A stretch of 64,000 nt of DNA from Streptomyces chartreusis (GTDB lineage: Bacteria > Actinomycetota > Actinomycetes > Streptomycetales > Streptomycetaceae), in NCBI RefSeq assembly GCF_008704715.1, contig NZ_CP023689.1, forward strand, positions 372,001 to 436,000, read 5' to 3'. Numbering within the stretch: the stretch's first letter is position 1; every line of letters starts with the position of its first letter. Shown in pieces: positions 51,107 through 55,286 of this stretch. The notes beneath the pieces were generated by a model. The model saw only the letters and a program-made list of their open reading frames with translations, searched no databases and had not been told where the DNA came from. Made by a program: the position numbers and the translations under genes.

Positions 51107-53254
51107 ATGACTTCGCAGTCCCGCGCGGTGCTCGGCATCGCGCTCACTCCCGTTCTGGCCCTGGCGTCCGCAGCTCCGGTCGCCGCCGGCACCACCACCG
51201 CGGCAGCCGCCAGCACTGCGGCGCCCACGGTCGACAAGCGTGCGCCGGGCCTTTGGGGCACCCGCACCCTGCACGCCCCGAACCCCAACCCCGTCTCCGC
51301 CTCGGGCGGCCTGAACGCCCTGGTGTCGGCCGGGAACGGCACGCTCGTCTCCATGACCGGCGACGGACTCTCCCGTTCCACCCGGATCCGGCCCGCCGGC
51401 AGCACCGGCTGGCTCGCCCCGCAGACCTGGGCGGACGCCGGCGGGTACAACACCGAGTTGGTGGCGCTCGGCGACGGCTCGGTGCGCCTGGCCTGGCGTG
51501 CCAAGCGTGCCGACGACCACAACGACTACTGGCTGAAGGTGGCCACCCTCAAGCCCGGCGCGAGCGCCTTCTCCGCGCCCGAGTACGTCGCCGCGGTCCC
51601 CGAGAAGGGCTACCACCACCTGGCGGCGGCACCCGACGGCCGAGTGGTGGCCGTGTGGGCGGTCTCCGGTGTCGTGAAGGCCGCCGAGAAGGCCGGCCCG
51701 CAGGCCGCGTGGACCGCCCCGTCCGACCTCAACACGCAGCCCCCGTCCGGCAGTCGGAACATCTCCAGCATGGACCTGGCGGTCGCCAAGGACGGCACCT
51801 CGTTGCTGGTGTGGCAGTGGCAGTCGAGCAAGGCCGTCGTCGCCCTGGAGAAGGCCCCGGCCGCGACGGCCTGGGCCGCGGTCCCGGGCTTCCCCGTCCC
51901 GGGTGCGGACCTGGCACGCCCGAAGGCGTTCGCCAATCCGCAGGGCGGCTTCGACGTGTTCTACGACGACCTCGCGCACCTCATGCACACCCGCCGGGCG
52001 GCGGGCGCCACGCAGTGGAGCACCCCGCGTTCCGCCGCCGGCTACGGCAGCACGTCCGGGATGACGACGCCCGTGTACCTCCCCAACGGCGATCTCTTCG
52101 TCGCCGGCGAGCCCGGCTACTCGACCGGCTCCTGGTACGCCCTGCGCTCGGCGTCCACCGGGGCCTGGCAGCCGTACACCCAGCCCTTCTCCACGCACAA
52201 GAAGGTGCGCGCGGTCCGCGCGGCCGCCACCTCGGGCGGCACGGTCACGGTGACGTGGCGGGAGGGCTACTCGTACGAGGAGTACACGATGGCCGCCGTG
52301 TTCAAGGGCGGCACCTGGTCCGCCCCGCGGCGGCTGAGCTCGACGAGCGCCCAGTTCGCGGGGGCGCCGCAGGTGGCCGCCGACGCGCTGGGCCGCCCGG
52401 TCGTGCTGTGGGACGAGTACAAGCGGTCCGAGACCGACAGCACCGTCCTGACCGGCGTCTACCAGGCCACCACCGGCAGCCGCGCGCTGCCCAAGTGGCG
52501 TGACCACACGGACGACGGCAAGGCCGACGTGTTCGGCAAGGGCAGCAGCGGACTGAAGGTGTACGCGGGTGACGCGACGAAGCTGTCCGCCGGGCAGCGC
52601 GCGACCAGCTGGCCGACGGGCACGCTGGTGCTGCCGTTCGGCGACCTCGACGGCGACGGCTGCAATGACGTGTTCGTCCGCCAGACGAGGGGCGAGGCGG
52701 ACGTCTACCCGACGATGTGCGGCGGACTGCCCGACATCCAGTCGCTCCACGTCAAGGTCTCGTCGGACTGGAGCGCGTACGACGCGGTCCTCTCGCCCGG
52801 CGACCTGACGGGCGACGGCCGCGCCGACCTGCTGACCCGGTCCGCGGCGTCCGGGAAGCTGTACCTGTACGCCAACAACGGCTCGGGCGGCTTCAAGGCC
52901 CGCACGCTCGCCGGGTCCGGCTACGGCGGCTACAAGAAGCTGATCTCCGCCGGAGACCTCGACGGCGACGGCAAGAACGACGTGCTGGGCATCGACGCGT
53001 CGAACGAGCTCTGGCGGTTCAGAGGCACCGGCGCCGGCACCTTCAAGCCACGGTCCCTGGTCTTCAAGGACTGGGGCACGTCCTACAAGGACGTGGTCGG
53101 CGGCCTCGACCTGTCCGGGGACGGCCGGGCCGACCTGATCTCACTCGACAAGGACGGCCGCGCCTGGCTGAACCGGGGCAACGGCCAGGGCGGCTTCGCC
53201 AACCGCACCCAGGTCGGCAAGGCCACCAACTGGTCGAGCATCCGCATCTCCTGA
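51107..53254 (+). CDS. Secreted FG-GAP/VCBS-repeat beta-propeller protein
   Basis: 715 residues. Sec signal peptide about 1-28 (ending PVAA-GT). The first 460 residues form a repeated W/G-rich beta structure with exo-sialidase-like blades. From about 465 four FG-GAP units carry calcium-loop motifs D-x-D-x-D-G (GDLDGDGCNDVF, GDLTGDGRADLL, GDLDGDGKNDVL, LDLSGDGRADLI). Typical Streptomyces extracellular repeat protein, probably adhesive or ligand-binding; no catalytic motif seen. A strong stem-loop follows. Confidence 0.87.
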   Translation: MTSQSRAVLGIALTPVLALASAAPVAAGTTTAAAASTAAPTVDKRAPGLWGTRTLHAPNPNPVSASGGLNALVSAGNGTLVSMTGDGLSRSTRIRPAGSTGWLAPQTWADAGGYNTELVALGDGSVRLAWRAKRADDHNDYWLKVATLKPGASAFSAPEYVAAVPEKGYHHLAAAPDGRVVAVWAVSGVVKAAEKAGPQAAWTAPSDLNTQPPSGSRNISSMDLAVAKDGTSLLVWQWQSSKAVVALEKAPAATAWAAVPGFPVPGADLARPKAFANPQGGFDVFYDDLAHLMHTRRAAGATQWSTPRSAAGYGSTSGMTTPVYLPNGDLFVAGEPGYSTGSWYALRSASTGAWQPYTQPFSTHKKVRAVRAAATSGGTVTVTWREGYSYEEYTMAAVFKGGTWSAPRRLSSTSAQFAGAPQVAADALGRPVVLWDEYKRSETDSTVLTGVYQATTGSRALPKWRDHTDDGKADVFGKGSSGLKVYAGDATKLSAGQRATSWPTGTLVLPFGDLDGDGCNDVFVRQTRGEADVYPTMCGGLPDIQSLHVKVSSDWSAYDAVLSPGDLTGDGRADLLTRSAASGKLYLYANNGSGGFKARTLAGSGYGGYKKLISAGDLDGDGKNDVLGIDASNELWRFRGTGAGTFKPRSLVFKDWGTSYKDVVGGLDLSGDGRADLISLDKDGRAWLNRGNGQGGFANRTQVGKATNWSSIRIS

Positions 53255-53286: not shown

Positions 53287-53319
53287 GGCGGGCGCCGCAG
53301 CCAACATGCGGCGCCCGCC
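53287..53319. terminator. Strong stem-loop between convergent genes
   Basis: GGCGGGCGCCGC and GCGGCGCCCGCC pair perfectly over 12 bp around a 9-nt loop, 8 nt before the end of the convergent XRE-polymerase-like gene. It should stop transcription from both sides. Confidence 0.8.
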
Positions 53320-53326
53320 CCCGTGT

Positions 53327-54799
53327 TCACCCGGTGCCGACGGTGTAGACGTCCTTGACCTTCACCTCGGTGACACCGCGCCCCTCCGCGAACACCGCGC
53401 GCCAGTCGCCGATGACGTGGAGTTCGTCGGTGCCCATCGCGCGGACGACCATGAGGCCCTCGTCGTAGGCCCGGTGCGCCTTCCACCACAGGTTCGCGAA
53501 GGCCTGGGATCGGATGAGGTGCATCCAGTCGGGGCGGTACAGCTCCCGGTTGTAGTTCGACTCCCCCATCGTGGAGACGAACTTCGAGTACATCGCCTTG
53601 ACGTACTCCAGCGTCACGTCGTCGTTGTCGGCGATCGCACGGTCCCGGGCGTCCTTGAGGGCGATCCGGAACTTCTCCAGCAGGCCCTCGGTCGCCCCCG
53701 AGGTCCATGACTCGTGGATCTCCGGCGGGTCGCACAGGCCGTACTTCGGGCCCGAAATACGCAGCAACAGACGCAGCGTCGACTCCGTCACCCACAGCGG
53801 GCCCGGCTCGTCGCGGCTGCCGATCGGGTTGGGCAGGTAGGCGTCGTGCTCCCAGTCGGGCGGCGTGATCAGGTGGATGCCCGCGCGACGCCGGTCGTGG
53901 TGGTTGCCGGTGGAGTGCTCCAGCTGGCCCAGCGGCAGGTGCGTCTTCAGCGCGCTCAGATACGCCCCGTTGACGTCGAGCGCGGTGATCTCGTGCTTCC
54001 CGGCGGGCAGTTCGGACCGGGACCACTTGGGGCGTGCTTCCCAGATCTGGTCTGCGCCGCGGGAGGACTGCTTGCGCAGTACGTCCGGCATCCACGGGTG
54101 AGCGACCACGTCGTACCGGCCGCCCATACGGCTGTGGTCGAGCAGTGCCATCGCGTCCGGGATCGCACGCTTGACCAGGGCCTCCGTGGCCGATTCCACG
54201 TCGCCGGAGTGCTCGGCGAGCGCGGACGCGACGGCGGTGCCGATCAGATCCGGGGTGTCGGCGGTCTGCAGACGGCGGCCGACGGGGACGACGCGGACGC
54301 CTTGCTCCGACTGTGGCTGCGGCTCCGGCTGCGCGGCCTCGGCAGAGCCGCACTCCGCAGGGTCCAAGTGCTGAGGGAACCCCGCGACCTGGTGACGGGC
54401 CGGCTCCCCACACAGCACGCACGGCTGGGGCGCGGCCAGCACGTCTACGTCGTCGTCCCCGCTGTCTTCCGCCTGCCCGGCGTCGGCGGGAGCATCGCCC
54501 TGGGAGTCGCTCTCGGAGGAGGCCGAGTCCTCGGCCGACGTCTCCTCTGCGGCCTCCGCGGCCAGCTTGCCCCTGGCCCCCTCCAGAAAGTACGCGTACT
54601 TCTGCCGCACTTCCCCGCTCGGATCCCGCCCGGACTCCCAGCCCCCGACCGTGGAAGGACTGACCCCCAGTGCCTGCGCGAGCTGGGCACGCGAGAGGTT
54701 CAGTTCTTCGCGCAAGGTGCGCCGTTCCTCGGCGGACGGCAGCGGGACTTCCTTCTTGGCGCCGGCGAGCAGCGCGTCGATCGCGCCGAAGTCGGTCAT
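53327..54799 (-). CDS. XRE helix-turn-helix fused to a family-B DNA polymerase-like palm (Tap-like)
   Basis: 490 residues. An XRE helix-turn-helix spans about 23-75 (LREELNLSRAQLAQALGVSPSTVGGWESG), then an acidic Ser/Ala/Asp linker (80-122) and a C-x2-C...H/C cluster at 127-150 that might bind zinc. The last 220 residues line up by eye with the palm of phi29-type DNA polymerase: motif A DVNGAYLSAL at 275-284 (phi29 DVNSLYPAQM), motif B VKAMYSKFVS at 400-409 (phi29 LNSLYGKFAS), motif C MGTDELHVIG at 455-464 (phi29 YCDTDSIHLTG). Spacings are also similar. The first metal-binding Asp of motif C is Gly here, so catalysis is doubtful, and no exonuclease motifs are clear. The layout recalls Streptomyces telomere protein Tap. 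Its start overlaps the stop of the small XRE gene by 4 nt. Confidence 0.8.
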   Translation of the reverse strand: MTDFGAIDALLAGAKKEVPLPSAEERRTLREELNLSRAQLAQALGVSPSTVGGWESGRDPSGEVRQKYAYFLEGARGKLAAEAAEETSAEDSASSESDSQGDAPADAGQAEDSGDDDVDVLAAPQPCVLCGEPARHQVAGFPQHLDPAECGSAEAAQPEPQPQSEQGVRVVPVGRRLQTADTPDLIGTAVASALAEHSGDVESATEALVKRAIPDAMALLDHSRMGGRYDVVAHPWMPDVLRKQSSRGADQIWEARPKWSRSELPAGKHEITALDVNGAYLSALKTHLPLGQLEHSTGNHHDRRRAGIHLITPPDWEHDAYLPNPIGSRDEPGPLWVTESTLRLLLRISGPKYGLCDPPEIHESWTSGATEGLLEKFRIALKDARDRAIADNDDVTLEYVKAMYSKFVSTMGESNYNRELYRPDWMHLIRSQAFANLWWKAHRAYDEGLMVVRAMGTDELHVIGDWRAVFAEGRGVTEVKVKDVYTVGTG

Positions 54800-55107
54800 C
54801 GCACTCCCCCGTCGACGGTTGCGGGCGGTGCGGTGTTGGCCGGGCGGGCGGAGACGCGGCGACGGTCGGCGGGCAGCGCCTCGGTGGCCCTCGTCGGGCC
54901 CGCCAGGAGTTCGAGGACGTCGATGCCGTAGTGCGAGGCGACCGCGTCGCAGTCGACCAGGCTCCAGGCCGCCGTACCGGACTGACGTCGGCTCACCTGG
55001 GCCTGGCTCACCCCCAGGGCCGAGGCGAGTTCGGTCTGCGACTCACCGGACGCGTGCAGGAGTGCGGCCACCGCGGACCGTACACGCTCCTCCAGACTCA
55101 TACTCAT
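54796..55107 (-). CDS. Small XRE-family DNA-binding protein, partner of the polymerase-like protein
   Basis: 103 residues from ATG at 55107; ATG at 55101 is equally possible. The helix-turn-helix is SQTELASALGVSQAQVSRRQSG. The tail is Arg/Pro-rich. Its stop codon overlaps the next start (ATGA), so it is the first gene of a two-gene operon. A TGGACA/TAGGTT pair about 15 bp apart upstream (near 55115-55142 on the minus strand) could be the promoter. It may regulate the operon or act with the larger protein at a DNA site. Confidence 0.82.
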   Translation of the reverse strand: MSMSLEERVRSAVAALLHASGESQTELASALGVSQAQVSRRQSGTAAWSLVDCDAVASHYGIDVLELLAGPTRATEALPADRRRVSARPANTAPPATVDGGVR

Positions 55108-55286
55108 TGCGCGGAACCTAGCACAGAGATCACATTGTCCATACGTTTTTCGCATGCTCGCGCGCGAGTCGGAGGAAGACGTGACTCGCCTCGCCCCGCC
55201 GTCCGAGAGCCACCCCCGGTCACCGATCGCGATCAAGATTCACCTCTGAGATGGTGAAACCGGAATGTTCCTGGAGGCGAGGCGTC

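Follow-up and report, generated by a model that had tools for sequence, protein, structure and literature searches.

A Tap-like Streptomyces protein with a predicted phi29-type polymerase fold is associated with Sg2247-type telomeres

The Tap-like gene and its domains

A 64,000-nt window of the Streptomyces chartreusis genome (positions 372,001-436,000 of a 9.91-Mb single-contig chromosome) contains, at 53327..54799 on the minus strand, a gene for a 490-residue protein that joins a helix-turn-helix (HTH) head like that of the telomere protein Tap to a predicted phi29-type polymerase palm. The frame opens with an ATG at 54799, and its assignment draws on the open reading frame, a match to the NCBIfam Tap profile NF047542, the predicted structure, and sequence motifs. 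As we discuss below, the gene probably encodes a telomere-associated, minimal protein-primed family-B polymerase, as predicted from its fold, which likely starts the patching of Sg2247-type chromosome ends.

The head is an XRE/Cro-type HTH at residues 23-68 (54596..54733, minus strand), defined by Pfam HTH_3 over residues 27-68 (E = 8.5e-11), the sole Pfam domain detected, and by modelled helices at residues 23-55. A Cys/His cluster of the form CVLCG...H...C at residues 127-150 (54350..54421, minus strand), with CVLCG and HLDPAxC retained in the family consensus, may form a metal-binding knuckle. The phi29-like polymerase region spans residues 190-488 (53336..54232, minus strand), where the family-B motifs follow in the order that the first-pass annotation had described: motif A, DVNGAYLS, at residues 275-282 (53954..53977), with D275 as a putative metal ligand; the motif B region, YVKAMYSKFV, at residues 399-408 (53576..53605), which includes Y404; and motif C, GTDELH, at residues 456-461 (53417..53434), with D458 as the second putative ligand, all on the minus strand and separated by 129 (A to B) and 54 residues (B to C).

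Among the matches listed, the nearest named relatives come from S. chartreusis. Relatives of the protein carry names such as helix-turn-helix transcriptional regulator, and detection of the HTH alone by Pfam would likewise suit an ordinary XRE-family transcription regulator. This explanation is very improbable given ~300 residues of predicted phi29 polymerase fold with invariant catalytic aspartates, and given the ties of the gene to a terminal-protein-like gene and to a telomere class.

Motif conservation and predicted fold

Several lines of evidence support the polymerase assignment. First, when the top 120 proteins from each of two homologue searches were pooled (240 in all, window protein included), D275, N277, Y280, K401, Y404, K406, T457, D458, K480, and K482 were identical in every member, and D275, N277, D458, K480, and K482 were still invariant in all 55 sequences of a second alignment (A4) reaching down to 27% identity. 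Second, profile alignment paired D275 and D458 with DVNSLY and DTDSIH of phi29 polymerase, i.e. with Asp249 and Asp458, the catalytic carboxylates of that enzyme (PMC4974454), and paired YSKF with YGKF of phi29-like polymerases. Third, the predicted structure was phi29-like in the polymerase region, with a palm and fingers covering phi29 residues ~126-493 and structural matches to phi29 beginning at chain residues 126-180. The phi29 subdomains (TPR1, TPR2, and thumb) are given their usual placement, and the 572-aa phi29 record is offset by 3 from the published numbering. Finally, the ratio of nonsynonymous to synonymous substitution rates (dN/dS) in the polymerase region was 0.13-0.24 against 15 relatives, and the region is thus under purifying selection. 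The fusion of an HTH to a protein-primed-polymerase palm, as first proposed, agreed with the structure prediction, and the motif residues proved to be conserved among homologues.

The first Asp of the DTD in motif C was missing throughout. Residue 456 was Gly in 215, His in 23, Ala in one, and Asn in one of the 240 proteins, and the full YxDTDS motif was found in none of them; the survey for an intact DTD that had been suggested at the outset therefore came back empty. The first-pass annotation was right that Gly replaces this Asp, but its suggestion that catalysis is lost does not follow: because D275 and D458 are intact, Gly at 456 is no argument against catalysis. Structural comparison with phi29 also found no 3'-5' exonuclease domain in the window protein, where the HTH and linker occupy that place. 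The missing Asp in 240/240 proteins and the lack of an exonuclease domain or identified thumb would fit a non-catalytic landing factor that binds the telomere overhang and recruits the terminal protein, with the palm as an inherited scaffold and another polymerase (e.g. DinB) carrying out all synthesis. Tap was formerly viewed in this way, and end patching is reported to require one of two Y-family polymerases (PMC4513846). We consider such a factor unlikely. If the palm were dead, we would expect one Asp to be lost somewhere, but the residues matching phi29 Asp249 and Asp458 were kept in all 240 and all 55 sequences, and Tap and Tac polymerize in vitro without an added polymerase (PMC4513846).

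The terminal-protein partner and the right telomere

We scanned 30 loci, comprising the window locus and 29 others fetched for comparison. In 23 of them, a gene of terminal-protein size (~190 residues) directly followed the Tap-like gene, starting from 8 nt before to 233 nt after its stop codon, and the linkage to a terminal-protein gene that had been put forward as a check was thus found; in the other seven, the window locus included, the scan detected no such gene. The 23 partner proteins are conserved as a family. Pfam HTH_3 was detected at E up to 1 in 12 of them, and one of three partners tested matched NCBIfam telomere_Tpg (E = 0.0099; 15.9 bits versus a cut-off of 90), with no telomere_Tpg match in the other two. 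The S. chartreusis genome has a single, intact copy of the partner gene, which encodes 191 residues, lies apart from the Tap-like gene, and stops 537 bp short of the chromosome's right end (G000:C1:9910986-9911561, equal to L054 10888-11463), beside the telomere. The first-pass statement that no Tpg-like gene is adjacent therefore holds for the window but not for most of the loci scanned.

The right chromosome end contained five scored hairpins, with loops GGA, GTA, GGA, GGA, and GGA, and shared 95.7% identity with the pSCAT left end across 46 nt; pSCAT is listed as Sg2247-type (PMC8743542) and encodes both a Tap-like and a terminal-protein-like protein. The right end thus combines terminal palindromes, GGA/GTA loops, and a match to a known Sg2247 end, by which we assign it to the Sg2247 class. 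The window itself does not look telomeric, as noted earlier, but the same chromosome ends on the right in a recognizable non-archetypal telomere. At the left assembly end (L053 1-220), we found no telomere hairpins and, at its start, no inverted repeat of the right end; either the chromosome is not closed on this side or its two ends are unequal.

The distant partner and the missing left telomere, together with a report that three of five lone tpg genes tested elsewhere were pseudogenes (PMC3572947), could be taken to mean that the family serves telomeres elsewhere and that the copy studied here is a leftover of plasmid or arm exchange, with the chromosome ends kept by another system. We find this doubtful, as the window gene is the sole family copy in a genome with no archetypal Tap over the profile cut-off, its partner is single, intact, and next to the telomere, and its polymerase region is under purifying selection.

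Co-occurrence of the gene and the telomere motif

Exact copies of a 23-nt pattern taken from the right chromosome end were present in 35 contigs from 32 named genomes, usually at the end of the contig, and all 32 genomes encoded the polymerase region (E = 1.2e-110 or better). In a sample of 392 Streptomyces genomes, which overlaps these 32, the gene was present in 14 of 14 genomes with an exact motif and, when one mismatch was allowed, in 19 of 20 motif genomes versus 143 of 372 others (Fisher p = 3e-7, kinship ignored). In the one motif genome that lacks the gene (G227), the match lies 4.33 Mb into contig 1, at a place that is probably not a chromosome end. At 2-3 mismatches, where many matches are internal, 18 of 31 genomes had the gene. 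Archetypal Tap behaved in the opposite way: it was present at full strength in 3 of the 20 motif genomes (a fourth, G263, had a weak match) versus 261 of 392 genomes over the cut-off (p = 1.6e-6, kinship ignored).

Sixteen records in a plasmid collection matched the S. chartreusis end, and in 15 the match lay within 2.6 kb of a record end; going by the 60 gene-bearing records listed of 142, seven of the 16 carry the gene, and in five more cases it is on a different plasmid of that strain. CLI2509, whose end match is internal, carries the partner and a gene fragment. Among the listed loci in single-contig genomes, with sizes taken to 0.1 Mb, 26 of 27 lay within 1 Mb of a chromosome end and ~17 within 100 kb; the locus of G398 lies near the middle of the chromosome.

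Plasmid pRLB1-9.2 has the gene order dnaB, Tap-like, terminal-protein-like, with the dnaB replicative helicase gene (L062 5059-6468) directly preceding the Tap-like gene, and a DnaB-like frame also stands ahead of the Tap-like gene at locus L026; these frames suggest a plasmid replication module. For a linear plasmid of this strain, named pRLB1-9.1 there, Tidjani et al. reported finding no Tap or Tpg homologue (PMC7205883). The 12,993-bp plasmid NZ_CP109261.1 (H110) has a terminal-protein-like gene, whereas the Tap-like gene of that strain is on a larger plasmid (H45), on which the ends of the smaller one may depend.

Neighbouring genes and other observations

A small XRE-type HTH gene lies directly upstream (54796..55107, minus strand) and overlaps the Tap-like gene by 4 nt (ATGA). 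Its start is likely at 55107, the listed frame opening at 55236; its product matched a PHROG transcriptional repressor (E = 1.5e-10), and a homologous frame occurred in 15 of the 30 loci, the window locus included. It is probably a regulator of the operon. A convergent gene faces the Tap-like gene and ends at 53254, and a perfect 12-bp inverted repeat between the two at 53288-53318 (GCGGGCGCCGCA, 7-nt loop, TGCGGCGCCCGC) is likely a terminator common to both. A role in defence, another early suggestion, found no support, as PADLOC gave weak matches to the HTH only.

In the core of the same chromosome, a second Tap-type HTH domain (L002/L004, G000:C1:3971630-3971950) lies inside an 831-aa frame that had no match to the polymerase region. 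A family member from S. davaonensis (P0084) is publicly named dihydrolipoamide S-succinyltransferase, a clear misannotation. A distant third branch (L065-L069; frames of 841-872 residues, 27-31% identity) has DRNG-S-Y/F-PSA as motif A and NVD as motif C, with a terminal-protein-like gene right behind; in the complete genome G150 it lies at 5.63 of 8.96 Mb, far from the ends.

A model for initiation at Sg2247-type ends

We propose that the 3' overhang left by replication forks would fold into hairpins with GGA/GTA loops and be bound by the HTH head of the window protein, which would recruit the ~190-aa terminal protein encoded beside the right telomere. The palm, with two metal ions held by D275 and D458, would then attach the initial nucleotides to the terminal protein at a Thr or Ser, with T117, which is invariant in 23/23 partner sequences and lies near the position of T114 in Tpg, and S175 as tentative candidates. 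The short oligonucleotide produced would be extended by another polymerase. A short product is expected because the protein lacks an exonuclease domain and its match ends before the phi29 thumb; the product of Tap in vitro is 13 nt.

Some results argue against this model. The direct sequence-profile match to phi29-like polymerases was weak (E = 0.019), and the family placement therefore depends mainly on the predicted fold. Neither a thumb nor TPR2 was identified in the window protein, the motif-B lysine (Kx3NSxYG) had no clear placement, and the profile alignment with archetypal Tap was in register at motif A only, not at B and C. The partner gene is not adjacent within the window. Among 162 gene-bearing genomes, 143 had no telomere motif within one mismatch, although many of these are drafts that lack chromosome ends and some may have other telomere types, and the co-occurrence statistics ignore phylogeny. 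In a gene search that covered plasmids, an S. xanthii plasmid with a matching end carried the partner alone, and pSHJG1 and pSHJGH1 (L300 and L301), which have Sg2247-like left ends, gave no polymerase-region match; both are hybrids whose other end is archetypal (PMC8743542). With these points weighed, we still judge a telomere polymerase the likely identity of the gene; this applies to the reading as a whole, in which the fold and the tie to the telomere are firmer than catalysis.

If correct, this identification would supply the polymerase for which Tap was said to have no motif and the missing pair that patches Sg2247 ends. In 2015, Tap and Tac were reported to polymerize on terminal proteins, although the authors saw no polymerase motif in either and held that Streptomyces encodes no B-family polymerase (PMC4513846), and the proteins patching Sg2247-type ends have been called elusive (PMC8743542). 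In the Creative Commons-licensed PubMed Central literature searched, by titles, abstract openings, and excerpts, we found no placement of Tap or GtpB as a family-B polymerase. The assignment as a polymerase would thus be new, as would its two catalytic residues, the link with Sg2247 ends, and an explanation for Tap. The proposal names residues for testing catalysis (D275 and D458 here; candidates D434 and D664 in Tap, L013 numbering) and a pair for Sg2247 ends whose polymerase tracks the telomere motif in 32/32 genomes, and it would extend the use of phi29-like polymerases to a cellular chromosome, with a likely reason why the product stops short.

Comparison with Tap, GtpB, Tac, and phi29 polymerase

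The likeness to Tap suggested by the first-pass annotation was confirmed over the N-terminus, where residues 4-143 aligned with residues 3-129 of NF047542 (telomere_Tap; E = 1.1e-20), though at 74 bits versus an equivalog cut-off of 600. Both proteins have an HTH head, a linker, and a polymerase-like C-terminus. Archetypal Tap had the motifs DxNxAF, KxxxKGGxGK, and SD in 39/39 cases, and its structure model also matched phi29 polymerase, aligned from residue 5-6. Tap is longer (~700-750 residues), contains a stretch from ~residue 167 that apparently models onto the phi29 exonuclease domain and is missing in the window protein, and serves a different telomere class. Tap acts with Tpg in vitro (PMC4513846), and a ~185-aa terminal-protein gene followed Tap in 29 of 39 scanned loci, an operon trait absent from the window. 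Thus, the window gene works like Tap in our reading but is not filed as Tap, as it falls below the cut-off and its partner is not adjacent.

GtpB and GtpA of Streptomyces griseus IFO 13350 are the telomere-associated and terminal proteins of a non-archetypal telomere (PMC7205883). Five S. griseus proteins among the matches listed are family members with 48-52% identity to the window protein, and as GtpB homologues share ~50% identity (PMC7205883), GtpB is probably a member too. If so, a telomere role has prior support in S. griseus, as indicated by the title of Suzuki 2008 (cited in PMC7205883); in the literature covered, in excerpt, we found no report of a polymerase fold in GtpB. The genome paper on S. 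albidoflavus J1074, which has a Tap-domain gene (XNR_5804) at its right end, anticipated that a novel Tap/Tpg pair remained to be identified (PMC3937824). Tac of SCP1, also telomere-associated, nucleotidylates its terminal protein (Tpc) in vitro and was reported to have no sequence in common with Tap (PMC4513846).

With phi29 polymerases, the window protein shares the predicted palm and fingers fold, the two catalytic aspartates, and the motif order, but it has an HTH instead of an exonuclease domain, Gly at the first Asp of YxDTDS, no identified thumb, and a cellular chromosome instead of a phage as its setting. On balance, we lean toward the broader view that Tap, GtpB, and the window family are all HTH-fused, initiation-only, protein-primed family-B polymerases derived from a captured phi29-type system, in which the exonuclease-like part would have persisted in Tap and been lost in the window family.
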